DNA from: Deltaproteobacteria bacterium
Lineage (GTDB): Bacteria > JAUYMQ01
Direction: 5' to 3'
DNA length: 43,151 bases
Assembly: GCA_030698575.1 (NCBI GenBank)
Contig: JAUYMQ010000519.1
Coordinates: 1 to 43,151 of the forward strand
The notes under the pieces are model-generated. The model ran no database searches. It was given only the letters and a program-made list of their open reading frames with translations, and was not told the DNA's origin. Numbering within the stretch: position 1 is the stretch's first letter; each line of letters starts with the position of its first letter. Shown piece after piece: positions 9,316-39,007 of the stretch. Made by a program: the position numbers and the translations under genes.

Positions 9316-9498
9316 ATGCTACGAGGCACATACAGAATTGACGGATCTTGGGTAGGGTACGACTACGATCGGCAAGCCTGGATTGATACGTCCCCGACCG
9401 CATCGCGAAACCCGCAATTCGCCGCGGGGACCGCAAGCAACCCGCTACCGGAGAAACCCGCCGTCGACGAGTCCACCCGAGTTACCGACATCAATTGA
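9316..9498 (+). CDS. First early gene, hypothetical protein (60 aa)
   Basis: The ATG at 9316 has an AAGGAG site 6 bases upstream; longer in-frame extensions run into promoter DNA. The protein (MLRGTYRIDGSWVGYDYDRQ) is small, hydrophilic, with a Pro/Ser-rich tail. No family is recognised. As the first gene of the rightward block it would be made immediately after infection or induction, a usual place for host-takeover or control proteins (inference). Confidence 0.55.
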   Translation: MLRGTYRIDGSWVGYDYDRQAWIDTSPTASRNPQFAAGTASNPLPEKPAVDESTRVTDIN

Positions 9499-9515
9499 CA
9501 ACAGGAGCCCACACC

Positions 9516-9995
9516 ATGAAACGGATCACCCTCACTCACTTACGCGGCGCGTGCCGCGATCAACGGCGACTGTTCCAGCAGTTGTTCCCCGACGGCGCGC
9601 CGGTCACTGTCCGCGCCGCGCGGAAGGCCGTAAAGGCGCGGTTGGATATTCAGTGGCTAACGCGCTTGCTACCCGCCGACGCGCTGGCAGTCTACCGCGA
9701 GGCCACCGCCACCGCGTGGGCAGCCTACGACGAAGCCACCACCCCCGCGTGGGCAGTCTACCGCGAGGCTACCGCCCCCGTGCGGGCAGTCTACTGCGAA
9801 GCCACCGCCCCCGCGCGGGCAGCCTTCGACGAAGCCATCGCCCCCACGTGGGCGGCCTACGACGAAGCCGTCGCCACCGCGCGGGCAGCCTTAGACGAAG
9901 CCATCGCCCCCGCGTGGGCAGTCTACCGCGAGGCTACCGCCACCGCGCTAGTTAAGGCGCTCCGCGCAGTCCCTGAAAAGGATTCGGCACCATGA
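9516..9995 (+). CDS. Early protein with 11-residue tandem repeats
   Basis: The ATG at 9516 follows an AGGAG site. Residues about 1-55 form a basic, helical head (MKRITLTHLRGACRDQRRLF). From about residue 60 to 145 the protein is eight degenerate copies of an 11-residue unit of the type AxAPAWAVYRE, encoded by 33-bp DNA repeats (about 9690-9945). The alternating small/aromatic pattern suggests a long amphipathic helix or coil. Similar repeat proteins are scattered in phages of proteobacteria (recollection), but I know of no function. Repeat number may vary by slippage. The stop overlaps the next start (ATGA). Confidence 0.65.
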   Translation: MKRITLTHLRGACRDQRRLFQQLFPDGAPVTVRAARKAVKARLDIQWLTRLLPADALAVYREATATAWAAYDEATTPAWAVYREATAPVRAVYCEATAPARAAFDEAIAPTWAAYDEAVATARAALDEAIAPAWAVYREATATALVKALRAVPEKDSAP

Positions 9996-10426
9996 CAAAA
10001 CTTAAGATAGCCCCTTACACGAACTTGCACGGCGCGGACTTGTACGGCGCGGACTTGCACGGCGCGGACTTGCACGGCGCGAACTTGCGCGGCGCAAAAA
10101 ACATACCTGCATATATCATTGCCAATACAACGATATGCGCGGAGGGCGCCCTTACGGTCTACAAAAATACACTGGACGGAATTGTTACGTTGCACATTCC
10201 GGCCGCCGCTGCGCGGTCAAACGCGACCGGTCGTAAATGCCGCGCTGAGTTCGCACTGGTGTTGGAAACACCCCAGCATAAGCCCGCACAATCGAAACAT
10301 AACCCCGCCTTCCTGTACCGTGAGGGGGAAACTGTGCGCCCGGACACGTGGTGCGCTGATCGTTGGCAAGAATGCGCGGGGGGCATCCACTTCTATTTGA
10401 CGCGTTACGAAGCGGAAAACAATTAA
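9992..10426 (+). CDS. Short pentapeptide-repeat protein
   Basis: The gene overlaps the previous stop by 4 bases. The 144-residue protein begins MTKLKIAPYTNL, then has five A(D/N)LxG pentapeptide repeats (about residues 11-35, encoded by 15-bp DNA repeats at 10022-10095). It continues with AKNIPAYIIANTTICAEG and a globular domain resembling the C-terminal DUF5758-type domain of phage pentapeptide proteins. Long pentapeptide proteins mimic DNA, but five repeats are too few for that. The lower-GC globular part differs from its neighbours. Function unknown. Confidence 0.65.
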   Translation: MTKLKIAPYTNLHGADLYGADLHGADLHGANLRGAKNIPAYIIANTTICAEGALTVYKNTLDGIVTLHIPAAAARSNATGRKCRAEFALVLETPQHKPAQSKHNPAFLYREGETVRPDTWCADRWQECAGGIHFYLTRYEAENN

Positions 10427-24418: not shown

Positions 24419-24465
24419 TGGTAGGCGGTGGGGGACTCGAACCCCCGACCAACGGATTAAAAGTC
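24419..24465 (-). other. 3' half of a tRNA-Lys gene, probable attP core
   Basis: On the - strand these 47 bases read as a tRNA from the anticodon loop to CCA. They give loop CTTTTAA (anticodon TTT, Lys), TCCGT of the anticodon stem, a 5-base variable loop, T-arm GGGGG-TTCGAGT-CCCCC, acceptor strand ACCGCCT, discriminator A and encoded CCA. The 5' half is absent: the bases before it do not pair. A tRNA 3' end in a phage with a tyrosine integrase is the usual attachment core, which restores the host tRNA after integration. The rest of the 218-base gap (24383-24600) holds no gene; a TATAAT lies at 24402. Confidence 0.75.
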
Positions 24466-24600
24466 AGGTGTTGTGCTTTCCGCATCAACCACTTGCGAAA
24501 GGGCTTGCGGAGAAAGTGATATTGCGTTACGGTAGTAACTGCGTGTTGTGAAAAGCAAAACGGTGAAATCGAAAAACTGCTACCCAGGAGCGACCTGACC

Positions 24601-25187: not shown

Positions 25188-25394
25188 ATGGAGAGCATGC
25201 TTATCATTCCCTGCGGCCCACGTAGCGTGAATGTATGCATTTCTCTCGTGGCTCGCCGGGAAGCACGGAAGGCGCATCGCGACATGCTGCTGTTCGGGAC
25301 GGGCGTCGTGTGGTGCCCTAATGACGGTGGCGATCCAAAGCACATCCCAATCGAGGAATTTCAGTGGCCGGTCGGGGTGTCCCGTGGCGACTAA
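25188..25394 (+). CDS. Hypothetical protein ahead of the integrase (68 aa)
   Basis: The ATG at 25188 (GGAA nearby) is preferred over a GTG at 25167. The product (MESMLIIPCGPRSVNVCISL) has a C-terminal part, LFGTGVVWCPNDGGDPKHIP plus IEEFQWP, that looks like a small folded domain. It ends 11 bases inside the integrase gene, so the two are likely co-translated. Function unknown. Confidence 0.45.
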   Translation: MESMLIIPCGPRSVNVCISLVARREARKAHRDMLLFGTGVVWCPNDGGDPKHIPIEEFQWPVGVSRGD

Positions 25395-26526
25395 AACACT
25401 GACGGACTCCGCGATCAAGGCGCTTTCACCAGGAGAAACGGTATGGGACAAGGCGGTGGCGGGGCTGCACGTGCGCGCCAGCAAGACGGCGAAAAGTTTC
25501 TACCTCTTTTTCCGCACCAAGGCGGGCGTCTCGAGGCGGCCGAAGCTGGGTGGCACCCGTATCTTGACCATCGCGCAAGCGCGCGAGATCGCCCGGGCGC
25601 ACCTGGCAGCGGTGTCGGCCGGCCAGGATCCGGTGGCGGAACAACGGCAATCTCGGGGCGAGCCGACGGTATCGGTGTTTTTCGAGAGGTGCTGGCGTGA
25701 GCACTGGTCGTGCAAGAAGGATGCTCGGAATGTACGACGACTCTACGAGAGTCGTGTTGCCCCCCGGCTCGGTCATCAACGAGTGCGTGAACTATGTTAC
25801 CGCGACATCGCTGGGCTTCATTCTGCGCTTGCAGCTACCCCCGTCGAGGCCAACCGGACTCTTGCTTTGCTCAGCAAACTGCTCAATCTGGCCGAGCGAT
25901 ACGGTGAACGAAATCTTGGTACAAATCCCTGCCGACATGTACCCCGATACCCTGAACTGAGCCGGCGGCGCTTCGCCACGGTCGACGAGCTCGCCCGTCT
26001 CGGTCCCCTGCTCGACGCATCGTGGGCTGTCCTGCCCGATTCCGTGGCCTTCATCGGCCTTATGGTGTTCACAGGGATGCGCCCGGGCGAGGTGGAGGCG
26101 GGCCGGCGGGAGTGGATTCACGACACCATCCTGCGCCTTCCCGACAGCAAAACAGGGCAGCGCGACATATACCTGCCCCCACAAGCCTTAGCGATTCTCG
26201 AGCGGTTGCCGGCGCCACCCAAAGCGCCTGACGGGTTGATCCCGCTGGTGGGCGTCAAATATCCCCGGACGCTGTGGGAACGGTTAAGGGACGCAGCAAA
26301 GTGCCCGGATTTGCGGCTATACGACCTGCGGCGCACCTTCGCCACGGTGAGCCTGGCCGGGGGCACATCCATCAGTCTGATCGGGGAAATGCTGGGGCAC
26401 AAGACGGCCCAAACCACGAAGGTCTATGCGCGCCTCATGAGTCAGGCAGCACAGGGGGTGGCGGCGGACACCGGGCAGCGGATGCAGGGACTACTTGGCG
26501 GCCCAGATAAACCCGACATTGGCTAG
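25384..26526 (+). CDS. int: Tyrosine integrase
   Basis: The 380-residue recombinase starts at a GTG: (M)ATKTLTDSAIKALSPGETV. It has a DUF4102-like N-terminal arm-binding domain (VAGLHVRASKTAKSFYLFFR, IAQAREIARAHLAAVSAGQD), a core-binding domain and a catalytic domain. Catalytic residues are Arg in FTGMRPGEVE, Lys in LPDSKTGQRDIYL, the HxxR box as LYDLRRTFA (Tyr in place of the usual His), LGHKTAQTTK and the nucleophile in VYARL. It would integrate the phage at the tRNA-Lys site. Its 3' end overlaps a leftward gene (26491-26634) by 36 bases, the convergence point of the two blocks. Confidence 0.9.
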   Translation: MATKTLTDSAIKALSPGETVWDKAVAGLHVRASKTAKSFYLFFRTKAGVSRRPKLGGTRILTIAQAREIARAHLAAVSAGQDPVAEQRQSRGEPTVSVFFERCWREHWSCKKDARNVRRLYESRVAPRLGHQRVRELCYRDIAGLHSALAATPVEANRTLALLSKLLNLAERYGERNLGTNPCRHVPRYPELSRRRFATVDELARLGPLLDASWAVLPDSVAFIGLMVFTGMRPGEVEAGRREWIHDTILRLPDSKTGQRDIYLPPQALAILERLPAPPKAPDGLIPLVGVKYPRTLWERLRDAAKCPDLRLYDLRRTFATVSLAGGTSISLIGEMLGHKTAQTTKVYARLMSQAAQGVAADTGQRMQGLLGGPDKPDIG

Positions 26527-26634
26527 GGCGTAGGCCGCGAACACCAGCGCCATGCCCGGGTTGTCGTGGCTCAGGTAGCGCGCCCCGACGCTGAGGTATA
26601 GCACCCCCGCAAGGGCGAGCTCCCACGGCGTCAT
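26491..26634 (-). CDS. Small membrane protein at the end of the late operon (47 aa)
   Basis: The frame reads MTPWELALAGVLYLSVGARY, then LSHDNPGMALVFAAYALANV and GFIWAAK. It has two hydrophobic helices (about residues 4-19 and 26-45) joined by a polar turn. Its start overlaps the lipoprotein stop by 4 bases (ATGA). As the last gene after the endolysin and a lipoprotein, it could be a second holin, antiholin or spanin partner (inference). It overlaps the integrase 3' end on the opposite strand. Confidence 0.55.
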   Translation of the reverse strand: MTPWELALAGVLYLSVGARYLSHDNPGMALVFAAYALANVGFIWAAK

Positions 26635-26750
26635 AGGTCAGCGGCCACGCACACCTGCACAGGGCCGGTGACAGTCACGGTCGTAATGTGCGTGACAGTG
26701 ACGCAGCCGGATAGCAGCAGGATACTACAGAGCGTAGCGATCGATTTCAC
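26631..26750 (-). CDS. Tiny lipoprotein, candidate outer-membrane spanin (39 aa)
   Basis: The GTG frame reads (M)KSIATLCSILLLSGCVTVT followed by HITTVTVTGPVQVCVAADL. The lipobox LLSGC places the lipid-modified Cys at residue 16, leaving a mature peptide of only 24 residues. Rz1-type outer spanins are comparably small lipoproteins next to endolysin genes, but are usually Pro-rich, which this is not. No inner-membrane spanin with a long periplasmic coil is seen. It overlaps the hydrolase gene by 26 bases and the next gene by 4. Confidence 0.6.
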   Translation of the reverse strand: MKSIATLCSILLLSGCVTVTHITTVTVTGPVQVCVAADL

Positions 26751-27309
26751 GGCGTGCTCGGCTGGCGATCAGTGGGTGCCAGTAGAACTTCTTGGCAAAG
26801 AGGTCGGAGTGCCCGTGGGCGGGGGCTCGACCGCGCCCGCAGTCATAGTTCCGCACGCGCGGGTCATCGCCCGTGTGTCCGCGGGCGCCCATGTCGCCCC
26901 ACAGTTTGTTCAGGAAGTCGGGAATGATTTGCGCCCAACGTACCGCCCGGTCCCCTTTGTTCCAGTACACATGGATCCACTTCAGTTGCGGGGGAAAATT
27001 GATGTCGTGGTCCAGGGCCGGATTGATGAGAATCAGACCCGCGAACATGGCGGCTTCGTAGACCGCTGCCCGGACCAGAACGGTGCAGCCGTTCGAGTGC
27101 CCGCACCCGATGTCCCCGGGCTCGACATGGTCGGCGATGCCCCGGGCGATTACTGGATTACCGAACCACGCGCCAAACAGGCCAATTGTGCCGTAGTCGT
27201 GCTCGAGTGTGCTGAACCCCTCTTCGTTCAGGTAGGGGATGAGCGTATCCGTAGTGCCCGCCCCGCCATCGTGGACATTGAATCCATGCACAAGATGTAC
27301 GGTGGTCAT
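26725..27309 (-). CDS. Alpha/beta hydrolase of the lysis cassette (194 aa)
   Basis: The ATG at 27309 overlaps the endolysin stop (ATGA). The protein (MTTVHLVHGFNVHDGGAGTT) has the oxyanion-side HGFN motif, a nucleophile elbow GHSNG (Ser72), a candidate acid Asp120 (NKGDRAVRW) and a His in APAHGHSDLF (His165 or His167). The catalytic triad therefore looks complete. There is no signal peptide. Substrate is unknown: an esterase or lipase acting on envelope lipids or acylated polysaccharide is possible. Mycobacteriophage LysB is a functional parallel, but there is no sign of a mycolate host. Confidence 0.75.
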   Translation of the reverse strand: MTTVHLVHGFNVHDGGAGTTDTLIPYLNEEGFSTLEHDYGTIGLFGAWFGNPVIARGIADHVEPGDIGCGHSNGCTVLVRAAVYEAAMFAGLILINPALDHDINFPPQLKWIHVYWNKGDRAVRWAQIIPDFLNKLWGDMGARGHTGDDPRVRNYDCGRGRAPAHGHSDLFAKKFYWHPLIASRARREIDRYAL

Positions 27310-27857
27310 GCTTGCGCCTCGCTGGCTATGATGAACAGACGTTTCAGCCACCCCGGTCCGAACACGTCAAAATTCCGGGTGCCGGTGTAGCGCAGCACCC
27401 GCCGGGTCATGAATACGGCGCCGAGCTCCTGCTGCTCCGCGCGGGAGATCGACACCAGAGCGTTGTTGCTCAATACGCCGTCCTGCGGCATGCGGGCGGC
27501 TTGCTGCAACATCTTCACGGCCGGCTCGACCCCCTGGTTCACCGCGCCGTCGAACACGTACAGGGCCAGCGGCCAGGGCAGCATGTCGCAACGGGCGGGC
27601 AGCCAGTACGCCTGAGTCAACCGCTCCCGCGCCTGTGCCAGCGTGGGCTCGCCGTTCTCCCACAAGTCCGGGTGATCCCTGAATGTGACGCCGTAGCAAG
27701 TCTTGCCGCCGGGGTCGCGCGGGTGATCGGCGCATTCCTTTTCGATCACCCGGATAACAATGTCCAAGGCACGTGCCAGAGGCGACTCAGGCACGCCGGT
27801 ATTCCCGGAAAACAAGGTCACGGCGCCTGCTGCGAGAAAGGTGCGGCGAGTCCACAT
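27306..27857 (-). CDS. GH108 endolysin with Tat-like export signal
   Basis: The 183-residue enzyme cleaves peptidoglycan (N-acetylmuramidase, glycoside hydrolase 108). After MWTRRTFLAAGAVTLFSG comes the catalytic region VIEKECADHPRDPGGKTCYG. This corresponds to the family motif EGGYxxxPxDPGGxTxxG, with the catalytic Glu kept (E39) but GGY replaced by KEC. A C-terminal PG_binding_3-like part follows (YVFDGAVNQGVEPAVKMLQQ, DGVLSNNAL). The N-terminus has a TRRTFLA twin-arginine pattern and a hydrophobic stretch, so it may be exported without a holin, or act as a signal-anchor. The start shares a base with the previous stop (TAATG). Confidence 0.85.
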   Translation of the reverse strand: MWTRRTFLAAGAVTLFSGNTGVPESPLARALDIVIRVIEKECADHPRDPGGKTCYGVTFRDHPDLWENGEPTLAQARERLTQAYWLPARCDMLPWPLALYVFDGAVNQGVEPAVKMLQQAARMPQDGVLSNNALVSISRAEQQELGAVFMTRRVLRYTGTRNFDVFGPGWLKRLFIIASEAQA

Positions 27858-28183
27858 TAATCGTGCTGGCCACCCAGCAAGTGCAGTACCTCGTGGCCGA
27901 GAATCATCAGCGCACGCCGGTCGTTGAAGTCTTTCGGCTTGGGCGTCACGATCAGGTCGGTGCCACCAGTGGCGCTTTCCAGGTAGCACGCGCTGCCGGC
28001 GCCGCAGTAGCCGTCCGCCCCGACGTTCTCCGTCTCGGTCCAACGCACTTGGAAGCAGGCTTGCTCCTTGTCCGGCGCCCGGTAGAACTTGTAGGGAATG
28101 GCCTCGTCGGCAGCACCCGCAAGAGCGTTCCACAGCAGCATCAGCACCAGAAGGGCGACAATGACCCAGCGGTCGCGGGTCAT
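27857..28183 (-). CDS. Exported mini-metalloprotease-like protein (HExxHxxGxxH)
   Basis: The 108-residue protein has a signal peptide (MTRDRWVIVALLVLMLLWNA, cleavage probably after AGA). Three Cys residues follow (C43, C60, C66), and the extreme C-terminus is ILGHEVLHLLGGQHD. HExxHxxGxxH (H97, E98, H101, H107) is the zinc motif of metzincin-type proteases. The protein stops right after it, so the Met-turn and substrate wall are missing. It may be a minimal hydrolase, a zinc-binding relic or part of a complex. Both ends overlap neighbours in the lysis cassette. Confidence 0.65.
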   Translation of the reverse strand: MTRDRWVIVALLVLMLLWNALAGAADEAIPYKFYRAPDKEQACFQVRWTETENVGADGYCGAGSACYLESATGGTDLIVTPKPKDFNDRRALMILGHEVLHLLGGQHD

Positions 28184-28905
28184 GGTTTATCTGCGACGGG
28201 ATTCACTCTCATTAAGTACGACTTGTAATTCGCAGGTGTTGCAAAAATTACCGGCAGCCCCACGAACGCTTGATGGGCCGCCACCAAAATCCCGATGATT
28301 TCCCCGGTAGTTTGGTCAATTACCGACGAACCACTGGATCCCGGACTGCCGAAAATCTGTAGCGTGAGATACCCATCCAATCCCGAGCCGGGACGTTCCA
28401 GACGCCCGGACACGATGCCGCTGTAGCGCACCTTTGTTACCCCCAAAGGAAACCCGACGGTGACGATCGGCCGCCCGGGCGCCACATTCGTATCGCTTCC
28501 AAAGCGGAGCACCGATACGTTGAGCGGTTCGTCAACGGCGAAAAACGCCAAGTCCACATCTGGTGTGCCGAACGCTTTTCGATATTTTTGCGGGTCCACT
28601 TCCCAGCGGGGTACACTCCACACTCGCGCGGCGTAGAATTGTTTTCCGTCGAAGCTCACTAGGTACGAAACGTCTTTTTCGACGCAGTGATACGCCGTCA
28701 CAAGTAGGGTTCTGTGTTCAGTTTTTTCCGCGGCTGTGGTCGAACACAAAAATCGCAATGACCCGTTATTCTCCTGTGCGTACAAGGCAGCCACGGCGGG
28801 TGATGTGCGCTCAAACATCGATTCCAGAGACTCGGCGGCCCGCACCATTCCGGCGGCGCCCATCAGCAAAGCTGCGGCGAGAAGCAGTAAGGGTTTGATC
28901 TGCAT
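28180..28905 (-). CDS. Exported trypsin-like serine protease
   Basis: The 241-residue protein starts with a clear signal peptide (MQIKPLLLLAAALLMGAAGM, cleavage near VRA-A). The chymotrypsin/HtrA-like triad is visible: His73 in VTAYHCVEKD, Asp118 in DVDLAFFAV and Ser191 in GSPGSSGSSV. The latter part has GVTKVRYSGIVSGRLE and GEIIGILVAAHQA. It has no PDZ domain. It would act in the periplasm, perhaps processing virion, envelope or lysis proteins. Exported serine proteases are rare in phage genomes. It overlaps the next gene by 4 bases. Confidence 0.8.
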   Translation of the reverse strand: MQIKPLLLLAAALLMGAAGMVRAAESLESMFERTSPAVAALYAQENNGSLRFLCSTTAAEKTEHRTLLVTAYHCVEKDVSYLVSFDGKQFYAARVWSVPRWEVDPQKYRKAFGTPDVDLAFFAVDEPLNVSVLRFGSDTNVAPGRPIVTVGFPLGVTKVRYSGIVSGRLERPGSGLDGYLTLQIFGSPGSSGSSVIDQTTGEIIGILVAAHQAFVGLPVIFATPANYKSYLMRVNPVADKP

Positions 28906-28922
28906 GATGTGATTTCCTCAAG

Positions 28923-30140
28923 TCATCCCGCGAACGAAACCCACGCGGTTTTGGGCGCCGCCCGCTGGCGGTCGACGTACACGGGCATTCGATATGTGAT
29001 TTTATACTTCGGATGCGTAATCCACAAGGCTTGTTGCGGATGCTCGAACGGGAAATTGTAGTTGTAGGCGTACTCGTCATAGCCCTTGAGCGAGCCGTTG
29101 ACAATGAGACGTGTTAAGTGGATGTACTGGTGCCAGTGGCCGCAGATCATCACGTCGAAGTCCATGTCGATCGCCGCGTTGCGGCTCGCCTTCTTGTGGC
29201 TGCCGCGGGTCAGTGGACCCAACGCGCCAATCATGGAATCGCCACCCCGGAACTGGTCGCCATGCGTGAGCAGGTAGCGATGCCCGTAGACACGGTAATA
29301 GGCGTCGGGACCGTCGGGAATGTAAAAGCGAATACGCGCATCGCCTTCGAAGCTCTTGGCGAGGAAACGGTAGAGCAACCAATCGAACGAGGTATGGTGC
29401 CGGTCCTTCGCCCAAATCTTGTGCGTGTCGCGCCCGTGGTTGCCGGTGACGCAGGGCAGAAACACCGAGCCGAAGGCGTTGGCCAACTGCGTGATGACGC
29501 CGCGTAGCACGCCGTACAAGTCCTCAATCGCGGGCATGGAGTTGATCTCGTTGCTGGCGGTGAGTTCTTCGTGGATGTTGCCCGATATCATGTCCCCACC
29601 CAGGGGCACGACGATGCCCGGATAGTCCATCTTCGGGGAGAGGATTTTCAGCAGATGCACCGCGGAATCGACGCAGGTCTGCATGCGCTCGCGGGCAATC
29701 CGTAGATTGTATTGGTTTACCCCGTTGATCTGGCTCGGATGCACTACTTCAGCCCAATGCAGATCCGACAAAAACAGGGTGGGCACACCCGGGCTGCCGT
29801 GCTGCTTGCGTGGGTTGATAATGAACTCCGGCGGGTCCAGATCTTCGACTTTGTGCCGGATATTACCAACAACACCTTTGATGATGTCGATGTCGGCGCT
29901 TTGCTTCTCCTTCGCCCGCAGTGCCGCCTCGAGCCGAGTGATGGTGGATTTGAGTCGCCCGGGACTGTCAGGGCGTTCGATGCCGGAGGCTATGCCCGCT
30001 CGGTTAGCCGCGCGGAGCCGTTCTCTCAAAGTTGAACGGGGGATTTTTATTGCTTTTACGGCAGCGACTTCGGATCCATATTTTGCCACCGCGTCGACAG
30101 CCTCCTGCATCTTCTCGACGGACATGGGGGGTTGTGCCAT
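28923..30140 (-). CDS. HTH-fused calcineurin-like phosphoesterase
   Basis: The 405-residue protein joins an N-terminal helix-turn-helix (about residues 8-45, ASEVAAVKAIKIPRSTLRER type) and a short coiled coil (60-85) to a metallophosphoesterase domain. Metal ligands are in FLSDLHWAE (D126, H128), GGDMISGN (D183), TGNHGRD (N234, H235), THGDQF (H293) and CGHWHQY (H335, H337). The fusion suggests a nuclease or phosphatase directed to DNA. Similar proteins are found in T7-like phages late in the genome (recollection). GGAGC precedes the start; the SprT-like gene ends 15 bases upstream. Confidence 0.82.
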   Translation of the reverse strand: MAQPPMSVEKMQEAVDAVAKYGSEVAAVKAIKIPRSTLRERLRAANRAGIASGIERPDSPGRLKSTITRLEAALRAKEKQSADIDIIKGVVGNIRHKVEDLDPPEFIINPRKQHGSPGVPTLFLSDLHWAEVVHPSQINGVNQYNLRIARERMQTCVDSAVHLLKILSPKMDYPGIVVPLGGDMISGNIHEELTASNEINSMPAIEDLYGVLRGVITQLANAFGSVFLPCVTGNHGRDTHKIWAKDRHHTSFDWLLYRFLAKSFEGDARIRFYIPDGPDAYYRVYGHRYLLTHGDQFRGGDSMIGALGPLTRGSHKKASRNAAIDMDFDVMICGHWHQYIHLTRLIVNGSLKGYDEYAYNYNFPFEHPQQALWITHPKYKITYRMPVYVDRQRAAPKTAWVSFAG

Positions 30141-30154
30141 CAGTGCTCCTGTCG

Positions 30155-30583
30155 TTAGAATTTGATGTTGAACATAGCCATTCCCAGCCGGAGCTCGCCT
30201 TCCTCGCAGCCGGCGTATTCGACCAGCAGATCGACATACTTGCGCACAAACCCGCGCCCGTGGGTGCCGTATCCCATCGCGTGAACCAGCTCGTGCAGCA
30301 GCACGTCGATGGTGTCGTGGCGCAGCCCTTCGTGGGTGTCCGCGCGCCGGGTGATCCTGATCTTGCTGAAGCCAACGCAGTAGGAGTATTTGACCCGCCG
30401 GGTGAAACCCACCGACGGGCAGGGCAAGCCTTTACGCCCGTGCTTCGACCACACGTTCGCAGCGATCGCGCGCAAGTCCTTGAGCGGTCGCGGGCGGAAG
30501 GCGTTATCTTGCATGAACATGCGCTCGAACTTATAAAGGCGTCGGGTCTCGACGCCGCGCAGAATGTTGGGGGCGCGGGGCAT
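30155..30583 (-). CDS. SprT-like zinc metalloprotein (142 aa)
   Basis: The preferred start at 30583 lies one base after the holin stop (TAGCATG). The protein has SVGFTRRVKYSYCVGFSKIR followed by the zinc motif LLHELVHAMGYGTHGRGF: H97, E98, H101 and probably H108. This HExxH...HG arrangement is that of SprT/Spartan-type minigluzincins. There is no signal peptide, so it would act in the cytoplasm. Spartan proteins cut DNA-bound proteins; a role in clearing or processing late proteins here is speculation. Longer upstream starts would overlap the holin. Confidence 0.72.
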   Translation of the reverse strand: MPRAPNILRGVETRRLYKFERMFMQDNAFRPRPLKDLRAIAANVWSKHGRKGLPCPSVGFTRRVKYSYCVGFSKIRITRRADTHEGLRHDTIDVLLHELVHAMGYGTHGRGFVRKYVDLLVEYAGCEEGELRLGMAMFNIKF

Positions 30584-30584
30584 G

Positions 30585-30749
30585 CTACCGTCGGCGCCGC
30601 TTCTCGAACCAACTGAAGATTTGCAAACAGCCCCACACGATTGCCACCAGACTTGCGATAGGCGCGAGCCATGACGCCGCGGCGCTGCCACCAATGACCA
30701 GCCAGTTCAACCAGCCCGGTGTGCTGTCAGCAACTTGAGAGATAGTCAT
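30585..30749 (-). CDS. Holin-like small membrane protein (54 aa)
   Basis: The frame reads MTISQVADSTPGWLNWLVIG, then GSAAASWLAPIASLVAIVWG, CLQIFSWFEKRRRR. It has a polar N-terminus, one long or two short hydrophobic helices (about residues 13-46) and a strongly basic tail (EKRRRR), the layout of small class II/III holins. It lies directly after the tailspike, as the T7 holin gene 17.5 follows gene 17. It would form inner-membrane pores that time lysis. Only 27 bases separate it from the tailspike stop. Confidence 0.75.
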   Translation of the reverse strand: MTISQVADSTPGWLNWLVIGGSAAASWLAPIASLVAIVWGCLQIFSWFEKRRRR

Positions 30750-30776: not shown

Positions 30777-32900
30777 TCAATTCACGCTTCTGGCGATTTC
30801 ATACCATGTCGATGATCGGCAAACGAGCGTCAGCGTATCCCCCGCGCTTGTGGTGAAGTTTCCGGCCAGTGACAGGTTGCTGCCATCCGTAACGGTTAGA
30901 ACACCGTCGAAGATCAGGGTCACGATGCGGCCAGAGACGGTTGACGCGGTACTGATCGAAGTGATGCCCGTTGTCCCGGAGATGTAAAAAACATTCCCTG
31001 TCGCGCTGTTGCCGCTCAGGTCCAGGTCTGCGGCGGACGCGACGGTTGCCGCAAGGGGCTTGATACCACCATACCCCACCCTTGCGGCATCACCGCTTCC
31101 GTTACTGACGGCTCTACACGCCACGGTCAGCGCACCCGAACCCATGTTGCTCAGGTCAACCGTATCGACGTTCTCCATCAGTGTGAGCTGGCTGGCTGCG
31201 TTGAACGACAGCGCCATGTTGCTATTGCGGATAATGGACTGGCTTGTGCGCAGACTAAGCGTCACTACGCCAGCCCCTTGGTTGTAAAGGGTGTCAAACT
31301 CCATCCAATCGCTCCGGTTGGTGACGTTCTCCACGCACACGTGCGCGTTGCCGGAAGTGTTGTTTGTCGTGATGTTCTTAATGCTTCCTGCGAACAGTCC
31401 GTTCGTCAGGAAGTAACGCCGTGCAGCCGCAGACACCGCATCGTTGATCTTTACCCCATCTATATGAACGCCGATGGCGTTGGTCAGGCGGAAAAAGGCG
31501 GTTGTCCCTGCGCTGGTCGTCACTTGCGATGCGCGTCCACCCCTTACGAAAATGCCGACAATTTCTGTACCCGTGGCTCCGTCAACTACCAGAAGCTCGT
31601 TCGCATCGTCGAACTCCCCGGAGAGGTTGCGGAAGTTAATGTTCGACACCCCGTCGTTAAGATACACGCCCTTTCCGCCCTGAACGTAGAAGTCGTCAAT
31701 CGAAAGCGTGTTGGAATCCGAAATCTTCATGCCGTATTGGCTCAGGTCGCCGGTAGTCTGCGCGAAAAATAATTTGTTGAATCTAGAATACAGTGCGCCG
31801 TATCCAATGGCGTCGGCATCATCCAGCAGCACACCTCCATAGCAAGTCCCCGAAAACCGGATGCGCTCGATAAATGACGCATTCACTCCCGTGCAGTGAA
31901 TGCCGTAGGAGGTCCCGCCCTGATTGTGAATCACAATGTCGTGGATATTGCTGTTGTGCATCCCGGTCTTGATCGCGCTCCCGCCGAGAGAGTTTTGATC
32001 GAAGCAGATGCCGGATATCTCCACGCCCTCGGTATAGGTGGCAATGGTGACCCCGATAGACGTGCCGCTGAGCTTTTTCAGCACCGTGCCATCAGTCGGC
32101 TCGTTCGTTACGTCCGTAACGCCAGCGCCGATCAGTTTCTGCCCGTAGGTATCCAGCGTGATGCCCCCGGACCATCCGTAGACGCCCTTGGGGAACCAGA
32201 CGTTTTGACCAGTAGCAATTGCCGCAGCAATCGCCGCAGTATCGTCCGTCACCCCATCCCCAACCGCGCCGAAGTCATTGACGCTGACAATCTCCCGCGC
32301 TTTCGCTTGTACCGTCCGCGCAACCGACCCGGTGCCGGATTGGATGAAACCGCTCAGAGCCGAACCGCCGGAGGCCGCAAGGTCAGTGCGCAGGCTGGTG
32401 TCGGTGCCGCTGCCGGCCGATGCCGACGGATTACCATCAGCATCGTACACGAAGTACTTGCTCGCCCGTGCGGCCTTCGTCGGCATCGGGTCGATATCCG
32501 TGACATCCCCGTCGGGCTGGCGCAGAGTCCTGTCCACCCGATTGTCCAGACGCTGCGCGATGAGGGTGAGCCGGTCCAACGGTTCCTCAACCTGAGTTTC
32601 CACCGCGAGTTCATCGCCGTCCACCAGGTCGACCGCTTGCGTGATGTCGGGATCCTGGTAGATCAGCAGCGTCTCGCCCGTAGCCGGCGCCGTGACCATC
32701 GTGACCGTGCCGCCGCCCGCGTCGCCCGCGCCCGTCACCGTGTAGTGCGTGGTGATGGTCTGCACCGTCTCGACTTCATCGGCGTCGACCAGCACGACAA
32801 CTATGTCGCCGTTCGCCAAGAACTTGCTCGAATAGGCGAACGCCGTGGTCGTGCCGTTGCCCGAGTACGTATACCGATTGGTGGTGGTGGAAATGGTCAT
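30777..32900 (-). CDS. Tailspike with T7-fibre-like N-terminus and pectate-lyase fold
   Basis: The 707-residue protein has three parts. Residues 1-150 (TNRYTYSGNGTTTAFAYSSK, LTLIAQRLDNRVDRTLRQPD) resemble the T7-type tail-fibre head that docks to the tail. A linker (SASAGSGTDTS) follows. From about residue 205 comes a pectate_lyase_3 signature (VNDFGAVGDGVTDDTAAIAA, then VWFPKGVYGW) and a long right-handed beta helix with many short G/N-turn strands. Such tailspikes bind and often cut capsule or O-antigen. GGTGA precedes the ATG. Confidence 0.85.
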   Translation of the reverse strand: MTISTTTNRYTYSGNGTTTAFAYSSKFLANGDIVVVLVDADEVETVQTITTHYTVTGAGDAGGGTVTMVTAPATGETLLIYQDPDITQAVDLVDGDELAVETQVEEPLDRLTLIAQRLDNRVDRTLRQPDGDVTDIDPMPTKAARASKYFVYDADGNPSASAGSGTDTSLRTDLAASGGSALSGFIQSGTGSVARTVQAKAREIVSVNDFGAVGDGVTDDTAAIAAAIATGQNVWFPKGVYGWSGGITLDTYGQKLIGAGVTDVTNEPTDGTVLKKLSGTSIGVTIATYTEGVEISGICFDQNSLGGSAIKTGMHNSNIHDIVIHNQGGTSYGIHCTGVNASFIERIRFSGTCYGGVLLDDADAIGYGALYSRFNKLFFAQTTGDLSQYGMKISDSNTLSIDDFYVQGGKGVYLNDGVSNINFRNLSGEFDDANELLVVDGATGTEIVGIFVRGGRASQVTTSAGTTAFFRLTNAIGVHIDGVKINDAVSAAARRYFLTNGLFAGSIKNITTNNTSGNAHVCVENVTNRSDWMEFDTLYNQGAGVVTLSLRTSQSIIRNSNMALSFNAASQLTLMENVDTVDLSNMGSGALTVACRAVSNGSGDAARVGYGGIKPLAATVASAADLDLSGNSATGNVFYISGTTGITSISTASTVSGRIVTLIFDGVLTVTDGSNLSLAGNFTTSAGDTLTLVCRSSTWYEIARSVN

Positions 32901-38015: not shown

Positions 38016-38573
38016 TTACACCCCGTCAAACGAGTAGTCGGACGCGCCGTAGTCGCCCAACTGATACCCGGTCTGCGCCGTCTTGGCCGGCTGGCTGCCA
38101 TAATACTTCCCGGCCCCCATCAAGATCGCGCTGCCCGCCTGCATATACCCTTGACGAGTTGCAGCTTTTCCGCGTGCCCGGTCGAGCGCCGCCGTTTCCT
38201 GATAGCCCATCGCCCGAAGCTCGCCCTTGTAGAGAATGTTCTGGCGGTCAAGCTCGGCTGCCGCGGCGCTCGATTCCAGCACGTCAAGGGGCGACCCCTC
38301 GACCGTGATGCCGGATGCGCCGTAGGCCGCGCGTGCCGCGCCGATCGCGCGCAGGGTACCCCGCTTCTGCGCGTCGGCATCCCGCGCCGCCTGCTCGCGC
38401 GCAATCCCGGCATCGCGCTCGGCGATCCCGGCGTTATACTCGCTGGCTTTCCGGGCGCTCGACGCCTGACTAATCGCACTTATGACGGTAAGAGCAGTCC
38501 CGGCCAGCAGCACACCCCCCGCAACAGCCGAGCCGCCACCTACCGCGGCAAGAAAAGGAGCAGCAAAGGCCAT
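38016..38573 (-). CDS. Internal virion protein, T7 gp14-like position (185 aa)
   Basis: The ATG at 38573 has a GGGGG site; upstream starts overlap the gp13-like gene. The N-terminus is hydrophobic (MAFAAPFLAAVGGGSAVAGG, VLLAGTALTVISAIS), followed by a long Ala/Arg helix (ERDAGIAREQAARDADAQKR), then YGASGITVEGSPLDVLESSA and a tail. This layout, hydrophobic head plus long helix with the SGI..GSP-L motif, is typical of gp14-type ejection proteins, which form the outer-membrane part of the channel. Confidence 0.78.
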   Translation of the reverse strand: MAFAAPFLAAVGGGSAVAGGVLLAGTALTVISAISQASSARKASEYNAGIAERDAGIAREQAARDADAQKRGTLRAIGAARAAYGASGITVEGSPLDVLESSAAAAELDRQNILYKGELRAMGYQETAALDRARGKAATRQGYMQAGSAILMGAGKYYGSQPAKTAQTGYQLGDYGASDYSFDGV

Positions 38574-38575
38574 AA

Positions 38576-39007
38576 CTACCCCCTGATCCTCACGTAGCCG
38601 ACACAATCCGTGCCGTCTACCTGAAAGCGTCGCTGCAGCGGTGCCTCCACTTCAAAACCCAGCATCTTCATCCACCTGTGCCCCTGCTCGAATCCAACAT
38701 CCACCGACGCCTCGAGCCGCCTGATCGGTAGTGCGTCCAGAAACCGCATTGCTTCGCGGTGAACTACCGCCATGTTCCGCCGGCCCACCCGGCTGCTCAG
38801 AAACGACCAAACCAGCGCCCGGTCCTTCCAGTAGAGCAATGCCCCGGCGCATATCAGCGGTTTTCCGTCATCCATCAGCGTAACCGCATATGGCCCCTCC
38901 AAACTCTTCAAGTCGGCGGCCGCCACCAACTGCCGCATACGCTCCTGCGCGGGCTGAATTTCCATTTGCCCGTAGTGCTCTGCTTCGAAAGGCACCACGT
39001 AAAACAC
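38576..39007 (-). CDS. GNAT-like protein in T7 gp13 position (143 aa)
   Basis: The GTG at 39007 shares a base with the upstream stop (TAGTG). The protein (FYVVPFEAEHYGQMEIQPAQ) has an acetyltransferase-like build: AVTLMDDGKPLICAGALLYW, then VVHREAMRFLDALPIRRLEA and VDVGFEQGHRWMKMLGFEVE. The last phrase is the GNAT C-terminal motif. Proteins of this size and kind hold the gp13 place between tail tubular B and gp14 in many T7-like phages. A catalytic role is unproven. Confidence 0.75.
   Translation of the reverse strand: MFYVVPFEAEHYGQMEIQPAQERMRQLVAAADLKSLEGPYAVTLMDDGKPLICAGALLYWKDRALVWSFLSSRVGRRNMAVVHREAMRFLDALPIRRLEASVDVGFEQGHRWMKMLGFEVEAPLQRRFQVDGTDCVGYVRIRG

Follow-up and report, generated by a model that had tools for sequence, protein, structure and literature searches.

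A late-gene block of a temperate podovirus-like phage that encodes lysis proteins and possible accessory exported enzymes

The window analysed here is the entire 43,151-base contig JAUYMQ010000519.1 (C69) of a fragmented metagenome-assembled Deltaproteobacteria genome, and the subject of this report is a block of nine coupled minus-strand genes (26491-30749) between a tailspike gene and a convergent plus-strand integrase gene. Reading away from the tailspike, the block encodes a 54-amino-acid (aa) membrane protein, an SprT-like zincin, a metallophosphoesterase, an exported serine protease, a small exported protein with a zinc motif (the mini-zincin), a GH108 muramidase, an alpha/beta hydrolase, a lipoprotein and a 47-aa membrane protein. 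Adjacent genes at the block junctions are separated by gaps of 1-27 nt or overlap by 1-26 nt, with five overlapping junctions inside the block, among them those joining the serine protease gene to the mini-zincin gene and the latter to the endolysin gene. The minus-strand reading was backed by codon-position GC. A weak scan for sigma-70-like promoters on the minus strand gave no match inside the block, the sole match on that strand lying upstream of the tailspike gene. Because the genes are coupled, the block is likely a single late transcription unit. An earlier interpretation of the letters alone (the sequence-only reading) had described one operon of ten close or overlapping genes after the tailspike; the operon and the close packing are retained, but the count is nine and reaches ten only with the tailspike gene included.

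The endolysin gene (27306-27857) encodes a 183-aa muramidase that matched the GH108 profile with 54.8 bits against a cut-off of 21.2 (E 1.4e-14) and the endolysin family phrog_315 (E 3.6e-28), and that is homologous to the solved GH108-like structures 2is5 and 2ikb (E about 7e-22), which bears out its earlier naming as an endolysin. Its N-terminus, MWTRRTFLAAGAVTLFSG, combines an RR pair with a weakly hydrophobic, Ala/Gly-rich stretch and fits a signal-arrest-release (SAR) signal-anchor or a twin-arginine translocation (Tat) signal equally well. This extension is absent from the sister muramidase of locus L031, whose start was taken as MTDFDK. The window protein carries three cysteines (42, 54 and 90), of which the L031 protein lacks the two close to the active site, Cys 42 and Cys 54. 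These features fit a periplasmic, disulfide-bearing enzyme whose export would depend on either a Tat signal or a SAR anchor.

The gene that follows (26725-27309) encodes a 194-aa protein with a GHSNG nucleophile elbow. Only Hydrolase_4 (E 4.9e-6) and Ndr matched it in Pfam, and neither PHROG nor NCBIfam gave a match. By inspection, a S72/D120/H167 triad is present and is invariant in comparison with the homologues of Shewanella phage S0112 and of locus L019, in which the homologue also lies at the lysis end. The earlier assignment as an alpha/beta hydrolase was upheld, with a Hydrolase_4 score 0.6 bit short of the cut-off. To survey the family, a scan built on an alignment of three homologues was run, which yielded 63 viral contigs and 46 distinct loci, including the two seed loci, and same-strand proteins within 0.9 kb of the hydrolase (near, n = 107) were compared with those more than 1.8 kb away (far, n = 106). 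Endolysin-type families were found among 8 of the 107 near proteins (M15 peptidase 3, GH108 3, phage lysozyme 2) and among none of the 106 far proteins (Fisher p 0.007), the far zero resting on 25 of the 29 Pfam families listed for those proteins. Small proteins with a transmembrane (TM) segment were likewise enriched near the hydrolase (31/91 near, 15/83 far, p 0.025). In locus L132 (3466-4585) the hydrolase gene comes straight after the GH108 gene, as it does in the window, with the two L132 genes 1 nt apart, and in L136 (3094-4591) and L149 (2899-4573) small genes stand between the two. In S0112 the hydrolase homologue precedes the endolysin. The hydrolase family is thus lysis-associated by the company it keeps, which is guilt by association and not functional proof. 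Inspected by eye, the surroundings of the GH108-hydrolase stretch in L132, L136 and L149 showed no apparent spanin pair.

Directly upstream of the muramidase gene lie the genes for the two exported proteins. The 241-aa serine protease (28180-28905) matched Trypsin_2 with 68.1 bits against a cut-off of 27.6 (E 1.8e-18) and HtrA structures at E about 1e-5, and by inspection it has an intact H73/D118/S191 triad and a cleavable-looking Sec signal peptide, as the sequence-only reading had proposed for a trypsin-like protein. It consists of the catalytic domain alone, without a C-terminal PDZ domain, and its best NCBIfam HtrA score, 32 bits, lay far below the cut-off of 416. The 108-aa mini-zincin (27857-28183) has a signal peptide and a C-terminus, HEVLHLLGGQHD, in which HEVLHLLGGQH (residues 97-107) forms a metzincin-type HExxHxxGxxH/D zinc motif; a sequence search of the PDB returned no match for it. 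No conservation of gene order backs these two proteins, since relatives of the protease and mini-zincin were absent from the vicinity of all 95 phosphoesterase loci described below, and close-relative searches of viral contigs and of 50,697 phage records turned up none that was usable. The mini-zincin was also absent from plasmids and from a sample of 369 genomes of another class. A match in L009 was dismissed as a spurious antisense frame, and a distant trypsin match in MW462191 sits among bacterial-type genes (cytochrome c biogenesis, HtrA protease/chaperone) and offers no parallel. Distant trypsin matches also occur in two unannotated faecal phage records.

Three further small genes complete the putative lysis set. 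The 54-aa membrane protein (30585-30749) had no family match, the nearest being an unknown PHROG at E 0.025, and it is called a probable holin because its homologues hold the same place, at or near the position after the tail gene, in L007, L019, L025, L028 and L030; the earlier holin call is therefore kept on position, not on family. The 47-aa protein (26491-26634) probably has two TM segments and may be holin-like or lysis-regulatory. Its homologue comes after the endolysin in L006 and immediately follows a Holin_3TMs-like gene in L025 and L031. In the latter two loci the Holin_3TMs-like gene, so named by inspection, stands between the endolysin and the 47-aa membrane gene, the place taken in the window by the hydrolase and the lipoprotein. 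That lipoprotein (26631-26750, GTG start) has 39 aa and an LLSGC lipobox, in agreement with the earlier claim. A loosened lipobox screen, which recovered the Rz1-type lipoproteins of L006, L007 and L087, left the 39-aa protein as the sole lipoprotein candidate on the minus (late) strand of the window. As a lipoprotein near the endolysin it fits the outer-membrane half of a two-component spanin (Rz/Rz1), its sorting to the outer membrane being a prediction. No candidate for a linked inner-membrane spanin (i-spanin), a protein with an N-terminal TM segment and a periplasmic coil, was recognised in the block by a screen that caught only one of three control Rz genes. The same screen found none in L019, where a lipoprotein is paired with the hydrolase. 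One N-terminal-TM candidate lies elsewhere in the window (38016-38606), among structural genes.

Between the probable holin and the serine protease lie two genes that set themselves apart from the rest. The first (30155-30583) encodes a 142-aa cytoplasmic zincin with an HExxH motif and a downstream HxxxF third ligand (HELVH...HGRGF, within HELVHAMGYGTHGRGF), which supports the SprT-like label of the sequence-only reading as to motif but only weakly as to family, its Pfam scores being below cut-off (WLM 13.5 bits, E 0.007; SprT-like 16.9 bits, E 0.065). The proteins in the same slot of L006 and L030 exceed the Pfam SprT-like cut-off. A profile comparison of the window protein with relatives gave no meaningful alignment, which points to a diverged or different zincin occupying the same slot. 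No usable close relative of it was found in annotated phages. The best solved-structure match of the SprT-like family profile was human Spartan (E 0.045). The second gene (28923-30140) encodes a 405-aa protein in which an N-terminal helix-turn-helix (HTH)-like segment precedes a calcineurin-like metallophosphoesterase (phrog_284 'exonuclease', E 6.6e-49), and it is 62-64% identical to proteins of L006 (64%), L007 and L011. The phosphoesterase family given in the sequence-only reading was thus correct, with the HTH-like segment as an addition. Sequence searches found no structural relative, and a link to Mre11 was not established.

The phosphoesterase was used to scan viral and genome contigs, which gave 95 loci in 43 clusters at 90% identity, and SprT-like neighbours were sought with a profile. 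In 13 of the 43 clusters an SprT-like gene is directly adjacent to the phosphoesterase gene, upstream or downstream and often overlapping (loci L006, L024, L025, L028, L030, L031, L051, L080 and L087 among them), and in two further clusters it lies within 1.1 kb. By inspection, the L087 pair stands beside ssDNA-binding-protein-like and nuclease-like genes, with GH108 encoded on the opposite strand at a distance of about 7 kb, and no lysis gene was recognised in the part of L080 that was read around the pair. DNA-protein crosslinks are substrates both of Spartan/Wss1 proteases and of Mre11/SbcD-type nucleases. Because of this shared activity, and because many phages carry the pair, often at some distance from lysis genes, it is likeliest a separate DNA-processing module, which may act on protein-bound DNA or DNA-protein crosslinks. 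The placement of both genes among envelope or lysis enzymes by the sequence-only reading was dropped accordingly, and with it the notion of an envelope attack by all ten genes.

The tailspike gene (30777-32900, minus strand) is the last structural gene and encodes a pectate-lyase-like fold (Pfam Pect-lyase_RHGA_epim, E 3e-12; tail protein phrog_13893, E 1e-40), and the convergent tyrosine integrase gene (25390-26526, plus strand, start approximate) matched Arm-DNA-bind_3 (E 3.9e-12) and Phage_integrase (E 4.6e-7). Copies of one Gly/Ala-rich repeat type occur at both contig ends (1-738 and 42966-43151), which suggests a circular genome broken within a repetitive gene. From these end repeats and a gene set that includes a capsid protein, an Sf6-like small terminase, an LPD38 protein, a Prim-Pol replication protein and the integrase, the window most likely represents an almost complete temperate phage. 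It is podovirus-like, since among annotated relatives that carry the phosphoesterase the closest one found is the podovirus MW202713. A tRNA-Lys(TTT)-like sequence (24419-24494) adjoins the integrase gene and is probably the attachment site. LptD matches in the binned genome are consistent with a diderm organism. Class- and phylum-level searches around this genome returned that genome alone. The same bin holds a second related phage fragment (L011, contig C114) with a different zincin, an integrase end and a phosphoesterase 63% identical to that of the window. Elsewhere in the window, two internally repetitive genes lie at 9495-10426, and the product of one is pentapeptide-repeat-like (LHGADLYGADLHGADL).

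Taken together, our preferred interpretation, which we hold tentatively and at somewhat below an even chance, is that the block forms the 3′ end of a temperate podovirus-like phage's late operon in three layers, a lysis locus of the ordinary kind supplemented by accessory exported enzymes that possibly help or replace the outer-membrane step. In the first layer, the SprT-like protease and the HTH-metallophosphoesterase would process protein-bound or broken DNA, outside lysis. In the second, the muramidase, as it appears to carry its own export signal or signal-anchor, could wait in the periplasm until the two small membrane proteins trigger or depolarise the inner membrane, and the alpha/beta hydrolase would be released along with this lysis core, which also includes the small lipoprotein. 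The third layer would consist of the HtrA-like serine protease and the mini HExxHxxGxxH protein. With no recognisable spanins, the second and third layers together might weaken the outer envelope, the hydrolase acting on lipid ester bonds and the protease on envelope proteins. The proposal of the sequence-only reading, an envelope-attack or exit programme beyond the usual set, survives in part, through the likely single late transcription unit, the muramidase, the endolysin-linked hydrolase and the lack of a recognisable spanin pair, but not for the SprT-like and phosphoesterase genes.

Several observations weigh against this interpretation. The hydrolase lacks a signal peptide, and the N-terminal EGG(Y) motif of GH108 enzymes reads E39-K-E-C in the window muramidase, so that EGG has become EKE, with the catalytic Glu kept when the alignment is anchored on DPGG and the two glycines lost. 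The mini-zincin stops one residue past the third His, with neither a Met-turn nor a C-terminal subdomain, which makes its activity doubtful, and it may lack activity or only hold zinc and cleave nothing; no Pfam, PHROG or NCBIfam family matched it above cut-off (Reprolysin_5, 15.5 bits against 27), so that of the protease proposed earlier for this gene the motif and signal peptide remain. As no relatives of the two exported proteins were found, their link to lysis is one of position and coupling in one genome only. In addition, structure prediction failed for both because there were no alignments, the single-sequence AlphaFold models being too poor for a fold search (mean pLDDT 56 and 34). The missing i-spanin is weak evidence, given the one-in-three recovery of control genes, and a phage need not replace missing spanins, since L031 and L025 have neither spanin candidates nor extra enzymes in the stretch examined. 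The bin may also not be the true host, as the tRNA-Lys(TTT)-like sequence has no further copy in the remaining assembled genome.

The protease, the mini-zincin and perhaps the hydrolase could instead be cargo for lysogenic conversion, superinfection exclusion or competition, carried in the late operon of a phage whose lysis is conventional. This would suit a temperate, integrase-bearing phage in which the two exported proteins are absent from all relatives and the protease gene has its own Shine-Dalgarno-like AGGA and a GC content at third codon positions of 0.62, below the 0.69-0.90 of the other block genes. However, the cargo has no minus-strand promoter-like site of its own, the protease, mini-zincin and endolysin genes are mutually overlapping and the hydrolase family is significantly tied to endolysins elsewhere, and we regard this explanation as somewhat unlikely. 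Lysis by an ordinary holin and endolysin, with the outer-membrane step carried out by an unrecognised spanin (such as the 39-aa lipoprotein and a partner encoded elsewhere) or unneeded in the host, is clearly unlikely in our estimate. In a published survey, 91 of 677 phages (13%) had no recognisable spanin, outer-membrane disruption in them being an open question, and 31 spanin-less genomes carried a lipoprotein without a linked i-spanin (PMC6139136), and L031 and L025 look spanin-less while having no extra enzymes. Yet the mature lipoprotein would have only about 24 residues, and the sole other N-terminal-TM candidate is the one among the structural genes.

At the other extreme, the envelope could be opened enzymatically by a non-spanin route, in which the periplasmic HtrA-like protease, with the mini-zincin, would cut outer-membrane tethering proteins and the co-released hydrolase would cleave membrane lipids, alongside the exported muramidase. 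Enzyme replacement of spanins is possible, but we consider this full scheme just as clearly unlikely, if not slightly more so. It is improbable that the protease is instead a lysis regulator that frees or matures a membrane-anchored periplasmic muramidase, or degrades a host inhibitor, in a releasin-like manner and without envelope attack. The RR-bearing, weakly hydrophobic muramidase N-terminus and the extra cysteines would accommodate such a role, and proteolytic release is among the models discussed for Mu releasin (PMC9239132), but that protein, a member of the separate family DUF2730, is proposed to work from the cytoplasmic side.

On our preferred three-layer interpretation, a lysis locus in which a lysis-linked hydrolase is joined by a muramidase and a protease that would both be exported is a concrete and testable candidate for spanin-less outer-membrane disruption, and the fully enzymatic scheme, if true, would be a non-spanin route to that step. 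In the literature searched, we found no description of the combination of an exported muramidase, a lysis-linked hydrolase and two exported proteins with no recognisable spanin pair. The recurrent SprT-like and HTH-phosphoesterase pair, which surfaced while the envelope claim was being tested, points to a phage module that may act on protein-bound DNA, and no description of it was found in the same literature.

Parts of the block resemble known systems. Locus L031, a viral contig from IMG/VR, carries the SprT-like, phosphoesterase, GH108 endolysin, 47-aa membrane-protein homologue and integrase genes in identical order, whereas its GH108 protein lacks the N-terminal extension, a Holin_3TMs-like gene is present and the extra enzymes are not. 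Podoviridae sp. ct7QV12 (MW202713, L006) shares the SprT-like gene, the HTH-phosphoesterase, an endolysin, the small membrane gene and the convergent integrase, but its endolysin is chitinase-like (GH19-looking), it has an Rz/Rz1 pair and it lacks the serine protease, mini-zincin and hydrolase. In Shewanella phage S0112 (MK675901) a hydrolase homologue, 42% identical in alignment and with the triad conserved, lies beside an annotated endolysin; unlike in the window, that endolysin was not GH108 in our scan, no exported proteases were seen and the neighbourhood is by the terminase rather than the tailspike. SAR endolysins such as phage Mu gp22 (PMC9239132) are lysozyme-type enzymes with a basic, weakly hydrophobic N-terminus, a likeness in manner of working; in the window muramidase membrane insertion and release would be predictions, and its N-terminus is equally Tat-like. 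The window hydrolase has no LysB family match and its context is diderm and of Gram-negative type, but it would share a working principle with mycobacteriophage LysB, a hydrolase that is co-encoded with an endolysin and attacks an ester-containing outer layer (PMC5707550).

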